In this document: piece after piece, positions 13,719-30,447 of the stretch
Position numbering within the stretch: the first letter of the stretch is position 1
Layout of the letters: every line of letters starts with the position of its first letter
Origin: Candidatus Omnitrophota bacterium
GTDB lineage: Bacteria; Omnitrophota; Gorgyraeia; Zapsychrales; Fredricksoniimonadaceae
Length of the DNA: 41,602 nucleotides
Direction of reading: 5' to 3'
Assembly: GCA_903901225.1 (NCBI GenBank)
Contig: CAIUQE010000016.1
Coordinates: 1 to 41,602, forward strand
Position numbers and translations under genes: made by a program
Notes under the pieces: model-generated
What the model saw: the letters and a program-made list of their open reading frames with translations, nothing else
What the model was told of the DNA's origin: nothing
Databases searched by the model: none

Positions 13719-15068
13719 ATGGGTAAGAAATTAATGCTTGCGGTCGCGATGCTCGCTCTTGTAGCGGCTCCCGCGTTCGCATCTGTTCAGAACGTCAAGG
13801 TCAGCGGCGCGCTCACCACGACGTCGATCATCCGTAACAACTTTTCGTCAACAGCCGTTGGTTCGGTTGCCAAGACCAATGAAATCCTCGGCCAGACATC
13901 CCTTGATGTCTCCGCGGATCTCACGGATAATGTGTCCACAAAGGTCGGGTTGCTCAATGAGAGGTTGTGGGGCGCAACGCCGGCTACAACTGGTCCTATC
14001 ACTAACTATTCAGACAATACGGTCAAGTTAGAGACAGCCTATGTCCAGTTGAAAGAGTTGCTCTATTCGCCGTTGACGTTGACGGTTGGTCGTCAGCCGC
14101 TGGTTTATGGTAATCAGCTGATCATTGGTTCGAATGGCAATGTCGTGAATGCCGGTCAGCCCTGGGCTGACGTGACCCAGGAAGGCAACTTCGACGCGAT
14201 CAAGGCTGTCCTCAGCTATGATCCGCTCACGGTTGACCTGTTTGCTTCACGTATTGACAATAACAAGACTGCCAGCGTTACCACTACGCAGGACAACGTT
14301 AACTTGTTCGGCGTGAACGCGAACTACAAGTTCGGCGACAAGATGAGCACGGTCGTTGAAGCGTATACGTTTGCGAAGATCGATGACAAGTCAACAGTAG
14401 CGAGCAATCCTGGTGACAGCATCAAGACCCAGACCACGTATGTGCCTGGCTTGCGCGTCAGCACCAATCCCATCGAGGGCTTGAATGTCCAGTTGGAAGG
14501 TGCGTATCAGGCCGGTAAAGTTTGGAATACCACTTCTTTGGTTGCCCAGACCCGTTCGGCGTACGCGTTACAGGGCGGCGTGAACTATGCGTTGCCTGTG
14601 CTCAAGAGCATCAAGCCTGTGGTTGCCGGCCAGTATACGTATCTTTCTGGCACCACGAACAACAACACGAACAACCCTGGGAAGCTCGGCAGGGCTTGGG
14701 ATCCGTTGTACTTCAACCAGAACGTCGGCAGGATCTTCCACGCCGCTGGTTATGATAACGGCAATTCACAGCTCGTTGTTGTGAGTGGCGAAATTGTTCC
14801 GTTGCAGGACCTGACCACGAAACTTTCGTGGAATGGGTTGTGGCTTGCTGAGAAGAACCGCGACACTGGTGCTGGTGTGAACGGCAGCAAGTACCTCGGC
14901 AGTGAAATTGACCTGGACCTGACATATGCCTACACGGAAGATGTCAAGTTCGGCGTCAGCGCTGGTTCCTTCCTGACGGGCAAGGGTATCGCGCCCAACG
15001 CAGGTACGGGTTCCGCGAACAACCAGAATGCCACGCAGCTCCTCACGAGCGTCGCGGTTGCGTTCTAA
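13719..15068 (+). CDS. Outer-membrane beta-barrel porin-like protein
   Basis: This 449-residue protein has a clear signal peptide (MGKKLMLAVAMLALVAAPAFA, cleaved after AFA), then alternating amphipathic strands typical of an outer-membrane barrel (for example TLTVGRQPLVYGNQLIIGSNG, VNANYKFGDKMSTVVEAYTF) and a C-terminal strand ending in Phe (LTSVAVAF), the signal for Bam insertion. The GRQPLVYGNQ segment resembles the alginate-export/porin group. It likely forms a general or substrate-specific channel; the substrate is unknown. An AAGGAG site precedes the ATG, a strong promoter lies upstream and a terminator follows, so it is a well-expressed single-gene unit. Confidence 0.85.
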   Translation: MGKKLMLAVAMLALVAAPAFASVQNVKVSGALTTTSIIRNNFSSTAVGSVAKTNEILGQTSLDVSADLTDNVSTKVGLLNERLWGATPATTGPITNYSDNTVKLETAYVQLKELLYSPLTLTVGRQPLVYGNQLIIGSNGNVVNAGQPWADVTQEGNFDAIKAVLSYDPLTVDLFASRIDNNKTASVTTTQDNVNLFGVNANYKFGDKMSTVVEAYTFAKIDDKSTVASNPGDSIKTQTTYVPGLRVSTNPIEGLNVQLEGAYQAGKVWNTTSLVAQTRSAYALQGGVNYALPVLKSIKPVVAGQYTYLSGTTNNNTNNPGKLGRAWDPLYFNQNVGRIFHAAGYDNGNSQLVVVSGEIVPLQDLTTKLSWNGLWLAEKNRDTGAGVNGSKYLGSEIDLDLTYAYTEDVKFGVSAGSFLTGKGIAPNAGTGSANNQNATQLLTSVAVAF

Positions 15069-15280: not shown

Positions 15281-15631
15281 TTGTGTAAGGTTTCTGCCAG
15301 ATACTATGCGACGATGACAGGGAAAAAGCCGGTTTATGATCACATTTGCTCTTTGGATGGTCGGACGCGCCAAAAGTTTTTTGATGTCATAGAGCTGTTG
15401 GAGTATAAGGGGCATATGTTGCCTGAACCGCACGCAAAATATTTGGGAAACGATATTTTTGAACTGCGGTTCTTCGGAATTGAAGGTGCGGTGAGAGTGT
15501 TGTATTTTTTCTTTCATCGTGATGCGGCTGTTTTGACGAACAGTTTTTTGAAGAAGACATCCAAAATCCCGGAGAATGAACTGGAATTGGCGATCGTTCG
15601 CAGAAAAGATTATTTGGAAAGAATAAAATAG
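15281..15631 (+). CDS. HigB/RelE-type toxin (phage-derived Gp49-like)
   Basis: The 116-residue protein matches the HigB-like Gp49 toxin family: a KKPVYDHICSLDGRTRQKFFDVIELLEYKG segment, PEPHAKYLGNDIFELRFFGIEGAVRVLYFFFHRDAAVLTNSFLKKT and a basic tail (RRKDYLERIK). Such toxins cleave translated mRNA. I accept the unusual TTG start at 15281 because GGAGG lies 6-10 nt upstream and no in-frame ATG appears until residue 12 (MTGKK). It precedes the antitoxin, the toxin-first order typical of hig operons, and both follow one promoter with a palindromic operator. Confidence 0.88.
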   Translation: MCKVSARYYATMTGKKPVYDHICSLDGRTRQKFFDVIELLEYKGHMLPEPHAKYLGNDIFELRFFGIEGAVRVLYFFFHRDAAVLTNSFLKKTSKIPENELELAIVRRKDYLERIK

Positions 15632-15640
15632 GAGATGGCC

Positions 15641-16039
15641 ATGAAATCCGACCTTGTGAAAGATCATTTAAAAGAAGAGTTAAAAGATCCTCATTTCAAG
15701 GAGCTTTACGAGCTGCATCAGCAAAAACTTGTGATCGTAAAAAAGATCATTGATTACAGGGTCAAGCAGCATTTGACCCAGGGGCAACTTGCAGATAAGG
15801 TTGGGGTTTCCCAGCAATATATTTCCAGGATCGAGACGGGAGATTTTTGCACGGTCGAGGTTCTTGAAAAAGTTTTGACGGCGATCGGGTATGCTGTGAA
15901 AATGCAGATCGTTCCTTTGAGAGGGGCGGGTTTGTCGAAGGCGGGAGCATTGCCTGTCCCAATGGCGCCGATATCGCTCCAGAAACAGTATATGAAAAGT
16001 TGCCGGATTAAGAGAGCCTTCAGTTCGCGCGCATGCTGA
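15641..16039 (+). CDS. HigA/Xre-type HTH antitoxin
   Basis: The 132-residue protein contains a helix-turn-helix (VKQHLTQGQLADKVGVSQQYISRIETGDFCTVEVLEKVLTAIG) of the Xre/HigA type, preceded by a charged helical N-terminus. It should neutralise the adjacent HigB-like toxin and bind the palindrome in their promoter. ATG 15641 is preferred to the ATG 6 nt upstream since AGGAG (15630-15634) is then properly spaced. After the usual family end (about MQIVPL) the frame continues for roughly 38 residues of low-complexity, Ala/Ser/Pro-rich sequence, which may be a 3' extension from loss of the original stop codon. Confidence 0.85.
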   Translation: MKSDLVKDHLKEELKDPHFKELYELHQQKLVIVKKIIDYRVKQHLTQGQLADKVGVSQQYISRIETGDFCTVEVLEKVLTAIGYAVKMQIVPLRGAGLSKAGALPVPMAPISLQKQYMKSCRIKRAFSSRAC

Positions 16040-16177: not shown

Positions 16178-16750
16178 GTGAACCGAGAAGAAATTTACGA
16201 TCATTTGGCCCAGGTCTACCTGGGCAAGCGCGCCCGCATTGAGGAAAAGAAACCAAAGCCCCGGCCCGGTGCCTGGTTCGTGATCAATGTCGTGATCACG
16301 GCCTTCATCCTGACGAGCGTGGTTTACGGTCTGACGGCGTTCCTCACGCAGCGCAAGGACGCGTTCCAGAGCCGGGTCATTTACGCGCTCAACAATTCGC
16401 CGATCCGCCTGACGTACACCGTCGGCGGCGCGTACCCGCAGGTGAAGAACCTGACCATCGCGGTGCCGGAAACGGACGTGTCGAAATACCGGCGGCTCAA
16501 TCTCTCGGTGCGCAGCGTCAACGGCAATCCGGGGATATTGAAAGTCATTCTCAAGAACGCCAGGGCGGAGCAGGCATCATATTATCTCAAGGGCGTGCAC
16601 GGCCGCTGGCAGGATTATTCGATCGCTTTCGACGACATGGACCTGACGGACTGGCATGCGATCCAGGACATTTCCTTCGTCATCGAGGCGTGGAACGCAC
16701 AGGACCCGACGGGCGCGGTCCTCATTGACAACATTACATTCTCCAATTGA
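16178..16750 (+). CDS. Single-span membrane protein with jelly-roll-like extracytoplasmic domain
   Basis: The 190-residue product has a charged N-terminal cytoplasmic segment (MNREEIYDHLAQVYLGKRAR), one transmembrane helix at about residues 34-56 (FVINVVITAFILTSVVYGLTAF), and an exported domain rich in strands: RRLNLSVRSVNGNPGILKVIL, WQDYSIAFDDMDLTDWHAIQDISFVI and AVLIDNITFSN. That last pattern is typical of galactose-binding-like or CIA30/CBM11-like jelly rolls, though I cannot assign a family. It uses a GTG start with GCAGGA upstream and ends 14 nt before the ParA-CBM48 gene. Together with the neighbour's glycogen-binding domain this hints at a carbohydrate-related membrane link, which is inference. 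Confidence 0.7.
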   Translation: MNREEIYDHLAQVYLGKRARIEEKKPKPRPGAWFVINVVITAFILTSVVYGLTAFLTQRKDAFQSRVIYALNNSPIRLTYTVGGAYPQVKNLTIAVPETDVSKYRRLNLSVRSVNGNPGILKVILKNARAEQASYYLKGVHGRWQDYSIAFDDMDLTDWHAIQDISFVIEAWNAQDPTGAVLIDNITFSN

Positions 16751-16764
16751 AAAGGGACACTCCT

Positions 16765-17892
16765 ATGAAGATCATTTCCATCGCGAACCAGAAGGGCGGA
16801 TGCGGCAAGACAACCACGTCCATCAACCTTGTGTCAACGCTGGCGATGAACGGCAAGAAGACCCTTCTCATTGACCTCGATCCGCAGGCCCATGCCACGC
16901 TGGGCCTCAACCGCGACGACAAATACAGCCTTTACAACGTCATTTCCAGGATCACGCCCCGCAAGCTCGCGCTCAAGGACATCATCCAGACCGTTGACAC
17001 CAACTTTGACATCGCGCCGTCGAATGTCCTTCTGGGCACGCTCGAACAGGAGCTGGCCGACGAGATCGGCCGCGAGATGAAGCTGGTGGATATCATCACG
17101 GGCCTCAAGGAGGCGTACGATTACGTCATCATCGACTGCCCGCCGAGCCTGGGCTTCCTGACGGTCAACGCGCTGCGCGCCAGCCACGAGGTGATCATCC
17201 CCGTTGAAACGAGCCGTTTTTCGGTGCAGGGCGTCGAGCATCTGATGGATATCGTCAACCTGATCCGCGACAGGCTGAACCATCCCGTCGTGGCAAGGGT
17301 CCTCATCACCATGTTCGATTCGCGCCTGCGGCATTCATTTTCAATGCTCGACAAGATCAAGGCCCAGTTCGCGGACATGATCCTCGGCACCATCGTCCAT
17401 ACCAACGTCAAGCTCAAGGAATCGGCGGTGGAAGGCAAACCGGTCATCGCTTACGATAAATATTGCCGCGGGGCCAAGGATTATTTCACGTTGGCGAAAG
17501 AGCTTATCGCCCTGGAGAGCGGCATCCGTCAGCCGGTTTCCGTCGTGGAGCTTCCCGCGCCCGCCGAGTTCTCGCCGCGGATGAAAGAACTTGTGGCGCA
17601 GGGGATGGCGGAAATGCAGGCCATCATGACGACGACGTTCCGCCTTGAGGCGCCCGAAGCCGGCTCGGTGTACGTATCGGGAAGTTTCAATGAGTGGGCG
17701 ATCGATGAGTCGTGCCGCATGACCAGGAAGGACGGCGTATGGGTCGCGCGCCTGCCGCTGGAGCAGGGGCAGTACCGCTACCAGTTTGTCGTCGACGGGC
17801 GCTGGCAGCCGGATCCCGCGCATGACCGGCGCGAACCCAACGGTTTCGGCGACATGAATTCCCTCATCGAGGTCGCCGCGCATGCCGCTTGA
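16765..17892 (+). CDS. ParA/Soj-type ATPase fused to a CBM48/AMPK glycogen-binding domain
   Basis: Residues 1-270 are a ParA/MinD-family ATPase: deviant Walker A KGGCGKTT (10-17), LLIDLDPQAHATLGL, and the switch/Walker B region DYVIIDCPPSLGFLTVNAL, with RFSVQGVEHLMDIV following. After a short linker, residues 292-372 form a complete CBM48/AMPK-beta-type E-set domain: VYVSGSFNEW, a WVARLPLEQGQYRYQFVVDG strand pair, W346 in RWQPDP, and the final PNGFGDMNSLIEV strand. W311 and W346 correspond to the glycogen-contacting tryptophans of that family. ParA proteins form gradients on the nucleoid that position plasmids, carboxysomes and other cargo; this fusion suggests glycogen or another alpha-glucan as cargo or signal. 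ATG 16765 is chosen over an upstream TTG. It overlaps the next gene by 11 nt. Confidence 0.9.
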   Translation: MKIISIANQKGGCGKTTTSINLVSTLAMNGKKTLLIDLDPQAHATLGLNRDDKYSLYNVISRITPRKLALKDIIQTVDTNFDIAPSNVLLGTLEQELADEIGREMKLVDIITGLKEAYDYVIIDCPPSLGFLTVNALRASHEVIIPVETSRFSVQGVEHLMDIVNLIRDRLNHPVVARVLITMFDSRLRHSFSMLDKIKAQFADMILGTIVHTNVKLKESAVEGKPVIAYDKYCRGAKDYFTLAKELIALESGIRQPVSVVELPAPAEFSPRMKELVAQGMAEMQAIMTTTFRLEAPEAGSVYVSGSFNEWAIDESCRMTRKDGVWVARLPLEQGQYRYQFVVDGRWQPDPAHDRREPNGFGDMNSLIEVAAHAA

Positions 17893-18193
17893 TCCCGTGG
17901 CATGCCGCGGGCGCGTGACGTTCGCGCTCCTGGCGTACTGTTTCATTTTTTGCCTCATCCCGCTGACCCTCAGGAAAAATGATAGCTTTGTCCAGTCCCA
18001 TGTCCGCCAGGGGCTGGCGCTTTGTTTGTGCGAGATGGCCGTGTTCCTGGCGAGCATTGTCCTGCCTTCTTTGATGAAGCCCGCGCTTTTTATTTTTGTC
18101 GCGGCTTCCGTGTGGGGCATGCTTCATGTGCTGCGCGGGCAGACCCCGGCTTTGCCTTTCATCAGCTCCCTGTCGCAAAAGTTTGATATTTAA
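17882..18193 (+). CDS. Small multi-span membrane protein (Tic20/DUF4870-like)
   Basis: The 103-residue protein has about three hydrophobic helices (FALLAYCFIFCLIPLTL, LALCLCEMAVFLASIVLP, LFIFVAASVWGMLHVLRG). The loop NDSFVQSHVRQGLAL resembles the conserved N-x-FVRFHxRQGL motif of small DUF4870/Tic20-like membrane proteins of unknown function. It starts inside the 3' end of the ParA-CBM48 gene (11-nt overlap), so the two are translationally coupled, and a Flp-like pilin follows. A membrane anchor or partner for the ATPase is possible but not shown. Confidence 0.65.
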   Translation: MPLDPVACRGRVTFALLAYCFIFCLIPLTLRKNDSFVQSHVRQGLALCLCEMAVFLASIVLPSLMKPALFIFVAASVWGMLHVLRGQTPALPFISSLSQKFDI

Positions 18194-18233
18194 CCTCCCG
18201 ATAATGGTATATTTATATAGTGCAAGGAGGCTT

Positions 18234-18416
18234 ATGCGAACATCGCGCCGGTCACGGGGCCAGAATATCCTGGAATACATCCTGCTGGTCATGGCCGTGG
18301 TGGTCGTGGTGATCGCGGCGATGGCCAAGAACGGTGTGTTCATGAGCACTGTTAATACCGCCTTGAAGTCAACGCAGGGCATGGTGGCTGACCGCCAGGG
18401 TGAGCTTAAATTCTGA
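18234..18416 (+). CDS. Flp/Fap-type pilin-like peptide
   Basis: The 60-residue product is a minimal type IVb pilin: basic leader MRTSRRSRG, predicted cleavage after Gly, then QNILEYILLVMAVVVVVIAA with Glu at mature position 5, and a short polar tail. This matches Flp pilins of Tad systems or related TadE-like minor pilins. AAGGAGG precedes the ATG and an AT-rich stretch (TATATTTATATAG) just upstream could hold a promoter. No tad assembly genes adjoin it; the ParA upstream is reminiscent of TadZ but carries no receiver domain. Its maturation would need a prepilin peptidase encoded elsewhere. Confidence 0.8.
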   Translation: MRTSRRSRGQNILEYILLVMAVVVVVIAAMAKNGVFMSTVNTALKSTQGMVADRQGELKF

Positions 18417-29254: not shown

Positions 29255-30447
29255 TCTGGCGATATACGGCCGTCAATGGCGTGGCGCAGGAGGTGACCGG
29301 ATCGGCTTGGGGCAGTCGGGGGCAAGCCGCGGCGCAGCTTGAAGCGCAGGGGCTGATCCCGGTGGCGCTTGAAGCCGACCTTGCGGGGACGATCAAAGCG
29401 GCTGTGACAGGCGGGATGATCCCACCGGAGAAACTGGCGTTCTTTTTCAGGGATCTTGCCAATATGCTTGGCGCCGGGCTCGCGCTCAACCATATTTTGG
29501 CCGCGTTCCATGGCTCCGCGACGGACGGGCGGATCGTGGCGGCGTGCGCGCGGATGGCCGGCGAGCTGGAAGCCGGGCAGTCCCTCGCGCAGGCGATGGA
29601 GGGTACGCGGGTCTTTCCGCGCCTGGCCGTGCAGGCTATTAACGCGGGCGAACGGGCGGGCAGTATCCCGATGGTGATGGGGCATCTGGCGGATTATTTT
29701 CATTTCATGGGCGAGTTAAAGGGGAATTGCGGGCGGGCGCTGGCCTACCCGTGCGGCGTGGTTGTTTTTCTGCTGGCGGCGCTGGTCTATGTGGCGCAGG
29801 CTGTTGTTCCCCAGATCGCGGTACTATTGCCGCCGGAAGCCATGGCAAGTCCGCTTACCCGCGGCATGCTCGCGTTGAGCCGTGTCGTGCGTGAGGACGG
29901 GGGATTGCTTCTGGCCCTGCTCTTTGTTCTGGCTGTCGGGATCGGTGCTTTCATTCGCGGCAACCGCAGAGCCTGGGAGGTTTTTTTGATGCGACTGCCG
30001 TTCATCGGGCCCGCGCGCAAGGACCTTGAGATCGCGACGTGTTTTTTTGACCTGTTCGTGCGCCTGAAGAGCGGGATCCCTCTGTATACGGCCTTGCGCG
30101 ACAGCGCCAGTGCCGCTCAAAATTTGACCGGTGAAGCGCTGGAACGTTGTGCCTTGCATCTTGCCGAGGGCCACACCTTCTCATCGGCGCTGGCACAGAC
30201 ATGTTATTTTCTACGCCTGGTCATCGAGACCATCAAGACAGGCGAGGACACGGGCTGTTATGACGGGTATTGCGAGCGGGTTTTCCGGTCGCACTACCTG
30301 TCATTCAAGGCGCGCGTGGACATGCTGGCCGCCGCCGTGCAGCCGCTGGCGTTGGGCGTGTGCGCGGCCTTCATCATGGCCATGGCTTTCGCGTTCCTTC
30401 AGCCCATTTACGCGAACCTCACGCGTATCGGGACCTTAAAACCATAA
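29251..30447 (+). CDS. Pilus assembly inner-membrane platform protein (GspF/PilC/PilR family)
   Basis: The 398-residue protein has two repeated T2SSF domains: the first shows PEKLAFFFRDLANMLGAGLALNHILAAF and AGERAGSIPMVMGHLADYF; the second KDLEIATCFFDLFVRLKSGIPLYTALRDS and ETIKTGEDTGCYDGY. Three hydrophobic segments follow the usual order (YPCGVVVFLLAALVYVAQAV, LLLALLFVLAVGIGAFI, LALGVCAAFIMAMAFAF). It anchors the ATPase and passes pilins into the growing fibre. ATG overlaps the ATPase stop (ATGA). Length is normal for the family. Confidence 0.94.
   Translation: MIWRYTAVNGVAQEVTGSAWGSRGQAAAQLEAQGLIPVALEADLAGTIKAAVTGGMIPPEKLAFFFRDLANMLGAGLALNHILAAFHGSATDGRIVAACARMAGELEAGQSLAQAMEGTRVFPRLAVQAINAGERAGSIPMVMGHLADYFHFMGELKGNCGRALAYPCGVVVFLLAALVYVAQAVVPQIAVLLPPEAMASPLTRGMLALSRVVREDGGLLLALLFVLAVGIGAFIRGNRRAWEVFLMRLPFIGPARKDLEIATCFFDLFVRLKSGIPLYTALRDSASAAQNLTGEALERCALHLAEGHTFSSALAQTCYFLRLVIETIKTGEDTGCYDGYCERVFRSHYLSFKARVDMLAAAVQPLALGVCAAFIMAMAFAFLQPIYANLTRIGTLKP

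Follow-up and report, generated by a model that had tools for sequence, protein, structure and literature searches.

The window analysed here, a stretch of 41,602 nucleotides from a Candidatus Omnitrophota bacterium (contig CAIUQE010000016.1), encodes a ParA-type ATPase that is fused to a carbohydrate-binding module of the AMPK type (CBM48). We find that this fusion belongs to a well-supported family with a partner code that is new within ParA-type positioning, its putative cargo being a glucan: genes adjoining the fusion recurrently encode a short N-terminal motif that resembles the ParA-contacting peptide of ParB. In the explanation that we consider best, at a confidence slightly short of even, the ParA-CBM48 family serves to place, tether or distribute glycogen or a similar alpha-glucan in the cytoplasm, and neighbouring proteins dock through this ParB-like peptide. 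An initial annotation of the window had pointed to the fusion; the peptide on changing partners, which it missed, is the more telling part.

That annotation had described a ParA with a complete Walker A motif joined to an AMPK-type CBM48 that keeps two glycan-contact tryptophans, and this description holds. One reading frame encodes both domains as a single protein (Table 1), with the two-lysine deviant Walker A, the catalytic aspartate, the Walker B aspartate and the Soj-type fold of the ParA/MinD superfamily. Across 59 Omnitrophota fusions and 14 others, K10, C13, K15, D37, D39 and D124 are invariant (L090, in which the ParA start was not found, was left out of this residue table, and L127, a Soj, was excluded from all fusion counts). 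On the CBM side F308, W311, Y339, D344, W347 and D350 are kept in 73 of 73 fusions. The group has KGGCGKTT as its signature, a motif that the scan pattern itself favoured. The basic residues 187, 189, 216 and 218, whose role in DNA binding we assume from Soj work, are mostly kept across the fusions. The C-terminal domain, whose score the annotation had proposed to check, lies above both CBM cut-offs in a profile search, and phmmer with the CBM region reached 1z0n (E 5e-11) and SEX4 (3nme, E 2e-5). In the phmmer alignment W311 and W347 pair with two tryptophans of the AMPK beta-1 domain, presumably its sugar-stacking residues.

An AlphaFold2 (AF2) prediction of the fusion, likewise suggested by the annotation, shows a Soj fold and a separate, confident CBM; the predicted local distance difference test score falls below 50 at linker residues 259-267, and the rest of the model is confident (mean 92.0). 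The linker is highly variable in length and sequence (alignment A1, 46 of the 60 listed fusions). Soj proteins are the closest solved structures, in a structure search that did not compare CpaE directly. ParA folds filled its list, so that it speaks for the ATPase part; the identity of the CBM was taken from the sequence match to 1z0n instead. Open reading frames (ORFs) were predicted with a custom caller, and their starts as well as small genes are uncertain.

The fusion is not the one-off that the annotation had taken it for, but a widespread family. It is found in 47 of 55 genomes of the source order, the window's own included (a table count, among the matches listed), 42 times as a single full-length match and five times as two segments of one open frame, and a one-off chimera or assembly artefact was rejected for this reason. 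At least 51 of 80 Omnitrophota genomes of >=90% completeness carry it; these 80 were hand-picked from 384, 16 of them for having no PF16561 match. PF16561 itself is present in 316 of the 384 (among the matches listed), mainly in a short stand-alone protein or a ParA fusion. With its CBM region as the query, the window's fusion brought up 33 proteins and a fusion of family f54 brought up 120, and all organism-named ones were from Omnitrophota. In a scan of one genome per species, full-length matches were titled Phycisphaerae, Sedimentisphaerales, Myxococcales, Deltaproteobacteria, Gammaproteobacteria (with Thiogranum), Rokuibacteriota, Gemmatimonadales and Auribacter fodinae, besides unplaced bins, which rules out an invention of Omnitrophota only. 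Of the 14 genomes from outside Omnitrophota that were searched, 13 have PF16561 above its cut-off. Among 80 genomes of the class to which the Rokuibacteriota genome belongs, 5 carry the fusion, and its distribution outside Omnitrophota is therefore patchy; the CBM region of the Rokuibacteriota fusion matches 554 proteins at E <= 0.001, of which the best 120 were listed.

A ParA tree was built from 105 domains, with 30 of the 59 Omnitrophota fusions (every second row) among them. It separates 60 of 61 non-fusion ParA proteins, as one branch (100/99), from the fusions. Only L189, which comes from a Nitrospirae bin, groups with the fusions though it has no PF16561 match. The fusion family may have a single origin; the deep forks of the tree are weak.

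The partner motif has the form [ILV][SAG]xx[FY][LFM][SGP] and is preceded in some lineages by LG[KR]GL, as in ParB. It reads LAQVYLG in the window's upstream protein (elsewhere LGKGLEDISYLFLS), the model of which places the peptide within a helix of residues 3-14. From this resemblance we predict that neighbouring proteins dock on the ATPase via the peptide. Six chromosomal ParB proteins (L164-L169), that of the window's genome included, have LG[KR]GLxALI, and a second, weakly matching ParB_N protein (L172) is without it; these seven were read among 15 ParB_N loci found. Two plain ParA-ParB loci have ParB directly downstream (+1), with LGKGIASLI and LGKGLSALI. According to the pertinent passages of PMC12204374, McdB needs no more than its first 20 residues, which are predicted to be helical, for binding to McdA.

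In the Omnitrophota loci, the pattern [LIVM][AS]x[LIVT][YF][LFIMQ], scanned over the first 70 residues, occurs in 41 of 56 directly upstream (-1) genes on the same strand and in the single one on the opposite strand (1/1). At +1 it is found in 9 of 55 same-strand genes, one of these hits being a transmembrane (TM) segment, and in 0 of 5 on the opposite strand; two to six genes away the count is 12 of 522, with five of the 12 being DUF4912 proteins of family f36. Most of the 41 hits at -1 belong to one family, c2, so that the excess there is partly inheritance; the telling point is the recurrence of the peptide on families other than c2. A looser pattern gives, outside Omnitrophota, 9/11 at +1, 0/11 at -1 and 4/134 in far genes, and within Omnitrophota 37/55 at -1, 8/55 at +1 and 29/686 in far genes (4 of the 29 again f36 DUF4912 proteins). 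A tenth non-Omnitrophota case, L263, was recognized by eye, for a total of 10/14.

Four scaffold types bear the peptide. These are a TM protein with a CBM11-like jelly roll (c2 and n31, profile match 97), a degenerate ParA or pseudo-ParA (c17 and n56, profile match 95; also the partner in L255, CbiA 32.9 bits), a DUF4912 protein (c20) and a NucS_C-like protein (c18, itself sub-threshold). LG[KR]GL plus core is present on c17, c20 and the partners of the Rokubacteria class, and the core alone on c2 and n31. The Rokubacteria-class loci L269-L271 have LGRGL[EQ]DVSHLFL[ST]; five fusions are known from this class, of which L268 was left out of the reading and L267 is the same gene as L257. In hhalign comparisons of the Rokubacteria partner, the match to c18 spans 147 columns (99.4), and those to two pseudo-ParA partners span 56 and 30 columns around the peptide (91.8 and 93.9). 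The DUF4912 cluster of f36 has the peptide in 5 of 6 members. DUF4912 as a universal bearer was rejected, with LGKGL present in one (L140, f36) of 18 loci read out of 30.

Of the 60 Omnitrophota loci, 15 have a GH57 gene at a distance of 0.6-4.7 kb from the fusion. In ten of these it immediately precedes the TM gene, at 0.6-0.8 kb; in the other five, all of family f36, it follows 4.1-4.7 kb downstream after the DUF4912 gene, in the order fusion, pseudo-ParA, c18, YfiH-type, DUF4912, GH57. The one GH57 protein tested (L085) has a branching-enzyme C-terminal domain. Two to four GH57 matches are found in 64 of 80 genomes (among the matches listed), and by a rough chance expectation a few per cent of loci would have a GH57 gene 5 kb or less from any given gene, a comparison that, given shared ancestry, yields no probability. 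In L181 a GH77 4-alpha-glucanotransferase adjoins the fusion on the opposite strand. The strongest single pointer to a glycogen cargo is f36, with its ParB-like peptide on the DUF4912 protein encoded before GH57. Glycogen synthesis enzymes are reported for Omnitrophota metagenome-assembled genomes in the relevant passages of PMC8542988. The annotation's suggestion that the motor places or partitions glycogen thus gains a link to alpha-glucan enzymes in part of the relatives, and is partly supported overall.

DUF4912 genes stand next to GH57 in many Omnitrophota genomes (L128-L157 and the genome tables; uncounted), and many Omnitrophota DUF4912 proteins have a Lys/Arg-rich N-terminus; among the open-licence papers searched, DUF4912 is named in one, on cotton callus. 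Stand-alone AMPK-type CBM genes were seen by GT5-like, GH57 or DUF4912 genes at G037:C43, G053:C25, G047:C11, G034:C4 and G080:C26, sites which, judged from gene content, represent a recurrent glycogen-type locus with a putative free glucan-binding protein.

These observations can be assembled into a mechanism. With its intact ParA nucleotide site and a CBM48 that has both conserved tryptophans, the fusion would, by analogy to ParA biology, form an ATP-bound dimer on the nucleoid, whose two flexibly tethered CBM48 domains could hold a glucan particle. The N-terminal motif that recurs on the adjacent gene would engage this dimer and cause hydrolysis and release, like the N-termini of ParB and McdB. 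In the window's lineage the peptide belongs to a membrane protein whose exported domain is CBM11-like, which suggests the inner membrane as the site where the glucan would be anchored or released; in f36 it is on a pseudo-ParA and on the DUF4912 protein just before GH57, which suggests that it would mark the glucan cargo itself. We read this as an ATPase that carries its own glucan-binding domain and an adaptor that carries the switch. Dimerization, nucleoid binding, glucan as the cargo, activation by the peptide and membrane anchoring by the TM partner are the steps that we infer. A dedicated ATP-driven ParA system that places or partitions polysaccharide, switched by interchangeable adaptors with one ParB-like docking peptide, appears possible, with the balance tilted somewhat against it. 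The adaptors would be the membrane sugar-binding protein, the pseudo-ParA, the nuclease-fold protein and the DUF4912 protein of a branching-enzyme locus; since they would be interchangeable and share the peptide, the same motor could be plugged to membrane or granule.

Several observations weigh against a glycogen-positioning role. The strongest counter-evidence is the lack of a neighbouring glycogen gene in the window's genome, in 45 of the 60 Omnitrophota loci (no nearby GH57) and among the neighbours scanned or viewed outside Omnitrophota, together with L189. A search of the window's genome found no GH57 beside the fusion and no DUF4912 at all; its GH57 match is single and weak (E 3.3e-15, among the matches listed), although it does have a GlgA-type synthase (G000:C31). 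Outside Omnitrophota, no glycogen enzyme was found in six Pfam-scanned non-partner neighbours (GalT-type, phosphoglucomutase/phosphomannomutase, glutamine synthetase, GT4 transferase and two P-loop proteins) or, by eye, in the others. A GT5/GlgA-type match is present in 76 of 80 genomes with the fusion or without it, and a strong GlgA-type match is missing from four fusion-bearing genomes, G015, G039, G165 and G186 (both among the matches listed); co-occurrence with glycogen synthase therefore does not discriminate, and was set aside as an uninformative test of function. The ParA of L189 (L189:3001-4817) appears to have lost the sugar domain and kept the partner, as the gene after it carries the motif LGKSLDDISHFFLS. 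Where AMPK has its lysine, 38 of 59 Omnitrophota fusions and 14 of 14 others have K or R, and the window's fusion and 21 of the 59 have glutamine. With respect to the peptide, the ratios given above are not probabilities, because the loci share ancestry and the looser pattern was written after some of them had been seen. The motif is missing at +1 in L253, L258, L259 and L265 of the 14 non-Omnitrophota loci, and no adjacent gene bears it in f8 (L098, L111, L112) and some other Omnitrophota loci. Finally, the organism names outside Omnitrophota are those of metagenome bins.

The main rival is a sugar-sensing switch for an envelope structure. Here the CBM48 would read cytoplasmic alpha-glucan and gate the ParA cycle, glycogen being the signal, and the ParA would organize the TM/jelly-roll protein and the outer-membrane porin. 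AMPK uses this domain as a sensor, which we count in favour of such a switch, as we do the membrane partner of the window's lineage with its exported, sugar-binding-like jelly roll, the recurrent porin-like gene (33/60 loci) and the CNNM-type membrane genes that precede the fusion in L108, L109 and L091 (Pfam on the L109 one). The peptide-bearing partners of f36, f54, f59 and most non-Omnitrophota loci, on the other hand, have no obvious TM segment by eye, and an envelope output therefore need not be the ancestral role; we judge the switch unlikely, though a serious contender. We regard it as improbable that the CBM48 has turned protein-binding or purely structural and that the system positions some protein cargo. 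Such a change would fit the neighbours outside Omnitrophota, where no glycogen enzyme was scanned or seen, the glutamine in the window's lineage, the failure of GlgA to track the fusion, and the peptide-bearing partner of L189 beside a ParA without PF16561. Against it stand the retention of both tryptophans in 73/73 copies over great divergence while the linker varies freely, and the GH57 neighbours of 15/60 Omnitrophota loci.

A pilus-positioning ParA (CpaE/TadZ-like), acting on the Flp-like pilin encoded downstream, is very improbable, and the annotation's sugar-dependent pilus switch proved weak. An Flp-like pilin ORF is present in the window and within 4 kb downstream of the fusion in 11 of 60 Omnitrophota loci, a weak association, and a cluster whose L085 member is a type IV pilin stands at -1 in 6 of the 41 first loci; the pilin is missing from most loci, neither a secretin nor a pilus assembly ATPase came to notice next to the fusion (no search was aimed at them), and the nearest solved structures are Soj proteins, with CpaE outside the direct comparison. 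That same likeness to Soj would suit a ParA that serves chromosome partition in the usual way and whose C-terminal domain is mere decoration, a reading that we consider scarcely credible. The window's genome has an orthodox Soj-ParB pair elsewhere (Soj G000:C15:29168-29920, ParB 30070-30339), so that the fusion is a second ParA; the partner genes scanned have no ParB domains, and the fusions lie outside the Soj branch of the tree. The Soj-ParB pair and the tree placement led us to reject this explanation. Positioning of alpha-glucan remains the reading that we prefer.

The neighbour survey covered the window and 59 further loci, i.e., 60 Omnitrophota fusions with a mean of 12.7 kb, and the features of the window are listed in Table 1. 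The membrane gene c2 is found near 36 of the 60 fusions, the porin-like c1 near 33, c3 near 30 and the DUF4870-like gene near 27, so the four-gene cluster that the annotation had proposed to survey is conserved in part, the pilin being its rare member. The jelly-roll fold of the window's c2 protein matches CBM11/CBM30 structures; a MAM domain was sub-threshold and gave way to the CBM11-like assignment. The DUF4870-like cluster c4 is at +1 in 22 of the 41 first loci, and its homologue in L089 reaches 18.9 bits with PF09685 (below the cut-off of 25).

Table 1. Features of the ParA-CBM48 locus, in window coordinates.
Feature	Position	Strand	Evidence
Outer-membrane porin-like protein, cluster c1	13719..15068	+	Alginate_exp PF13372 62.7 bits (cut-off 25.2)
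Partner candidate, cluster c2	16178..16750	+	N-terminal helix, TM 32-63, exported CBM11/CBM30-like jelly roll 65-190
Predicted docking-motif region EEIYDHLAQVYLGKR, residues 4-18 of the upstream gene	16187..16231	+	Motif recurrence at -1
ParA-CBM48 fusion gene	16765..17892	+	Single protein
ParA/Soj-like ATPase domain, residues 1-251	16765..17517	+	Walker A NQKGGCGKTT, D37, D39, D124
Linker, residues 252-288	17518..17628	+	Flexible ~255-270, then helix 271-287
AMPK-type CBM48, residues 289-372	17629..17880	+	PF16561 52.4 bits (cut-off 26.8)
DUF4870-like small membrane protein, cluster c4	17882..18193	+	Overlaps fusion end by 11 bases
Flp/class-III-signal-like small pilin ORF, 60 aa	18234..18416	+	Class_IIIsignal 23.3 bits (cut-off 23.7)

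Cluster c3 consists of Lys-rich proteins with a U32-C/EF-Tu-D2-like end (sub-threshold) and a very basic, histone-H1-like tail (for example L070:5255-5869 and L089:6885-7373); c3 could be a nucleoid or polyanion tether. Directly upstream of the window's cluster, at 15281-16039, lies a pair of genes with Gp49-like (PF05973, 71.8 bits) and HTH_3 (44.0 bits) domains, which is likely a HigBA-type toxin-antitoxin pair. A third architecture, with the AMPK-type CBM in open frames of ~1300 codons, occurs at G283:C76, G275:C15 and G344:C18. Sugar-enzyme profiles also match inside open frames of 37,731 to 70,450 codons (G157:C2, G152:C6, G144:C3), which we take to be the reported giant genes of Omnitrophota.

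ParA/MinD ATPases place DNA, carboxysomes and other cargos. Among the matches listed from the open-licence PubMed Central literature, we found no paper on a ParA with a CBM48, glycogen-binding, AMPK1 CBM or other carbohydrate-binding module fusion and none on a polysaccharide cargo for ParA/MinD, in agreement with the annotation, which knew of no described system with such a layout. Glycogen is not mentioned in the accessible portions of a 2025 review on bacterial organelle positioning (PMC13052382) or of a study on several ParA/MinD ATPases within the same cell (PMC10241942). The accessible portion of a paper on E. coli, which reports that glycogen phase separation rearranges the cell interior (PMC12706056), does not contain "ParA" as a whole word. 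If a dedicated ParA system for polysaccharide is indeed at work here, a carbohydrate would for the first time be the cargo of a ParA system, and a ParA with its own glucan-binding domain would provide an inheritance mechanism for storage carbohydrate. The recurring peptide also suggests a way to spot the partners of orphan ParA proteins, by a ParB-like core on the adjoining gene.

Compared with known systems, the fusion has no N-terminal extension, AAA_31 starting at its residue 1, whereas CpaE/TadZ proteins have a receiver-like N-terminal domain before the ATPase. In contrast to Soj-Spo0J (ParABS), it has the additional CBM48 and a separate tree branch, and a profile scan found no ParB_N domain in the partner genes scanned; a ParB-like N-terminal peptide is nevertheless predicted on the partner from its sequence. 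McdA has, to our knowledge, no carbohydrate-binding domain, and the fusion differs from McdA-McdB in carrying a putative cargo-binding module on the ATPase itself and in a partner scaffold that changes between lineages. The glycogen-binding domain of AMPK beta and the CBM48 of SEX4 are matched in sequence and in both tryptophans, but here the module is part of a ParA ATPase, not of a phosphatase or a subunit of a kinase, and the lysine contact is glutamine in the window. In its proposed job, bringing a storage granule to the nucleoid, the fusion would resemble the PhaM/PhaF and AlgP tethers of polyhydroxybutyrate and polyphosphate, of which PhaM and PhaF use histone-like domains that have no homology to ParA (relevant passages of PMC13052382).

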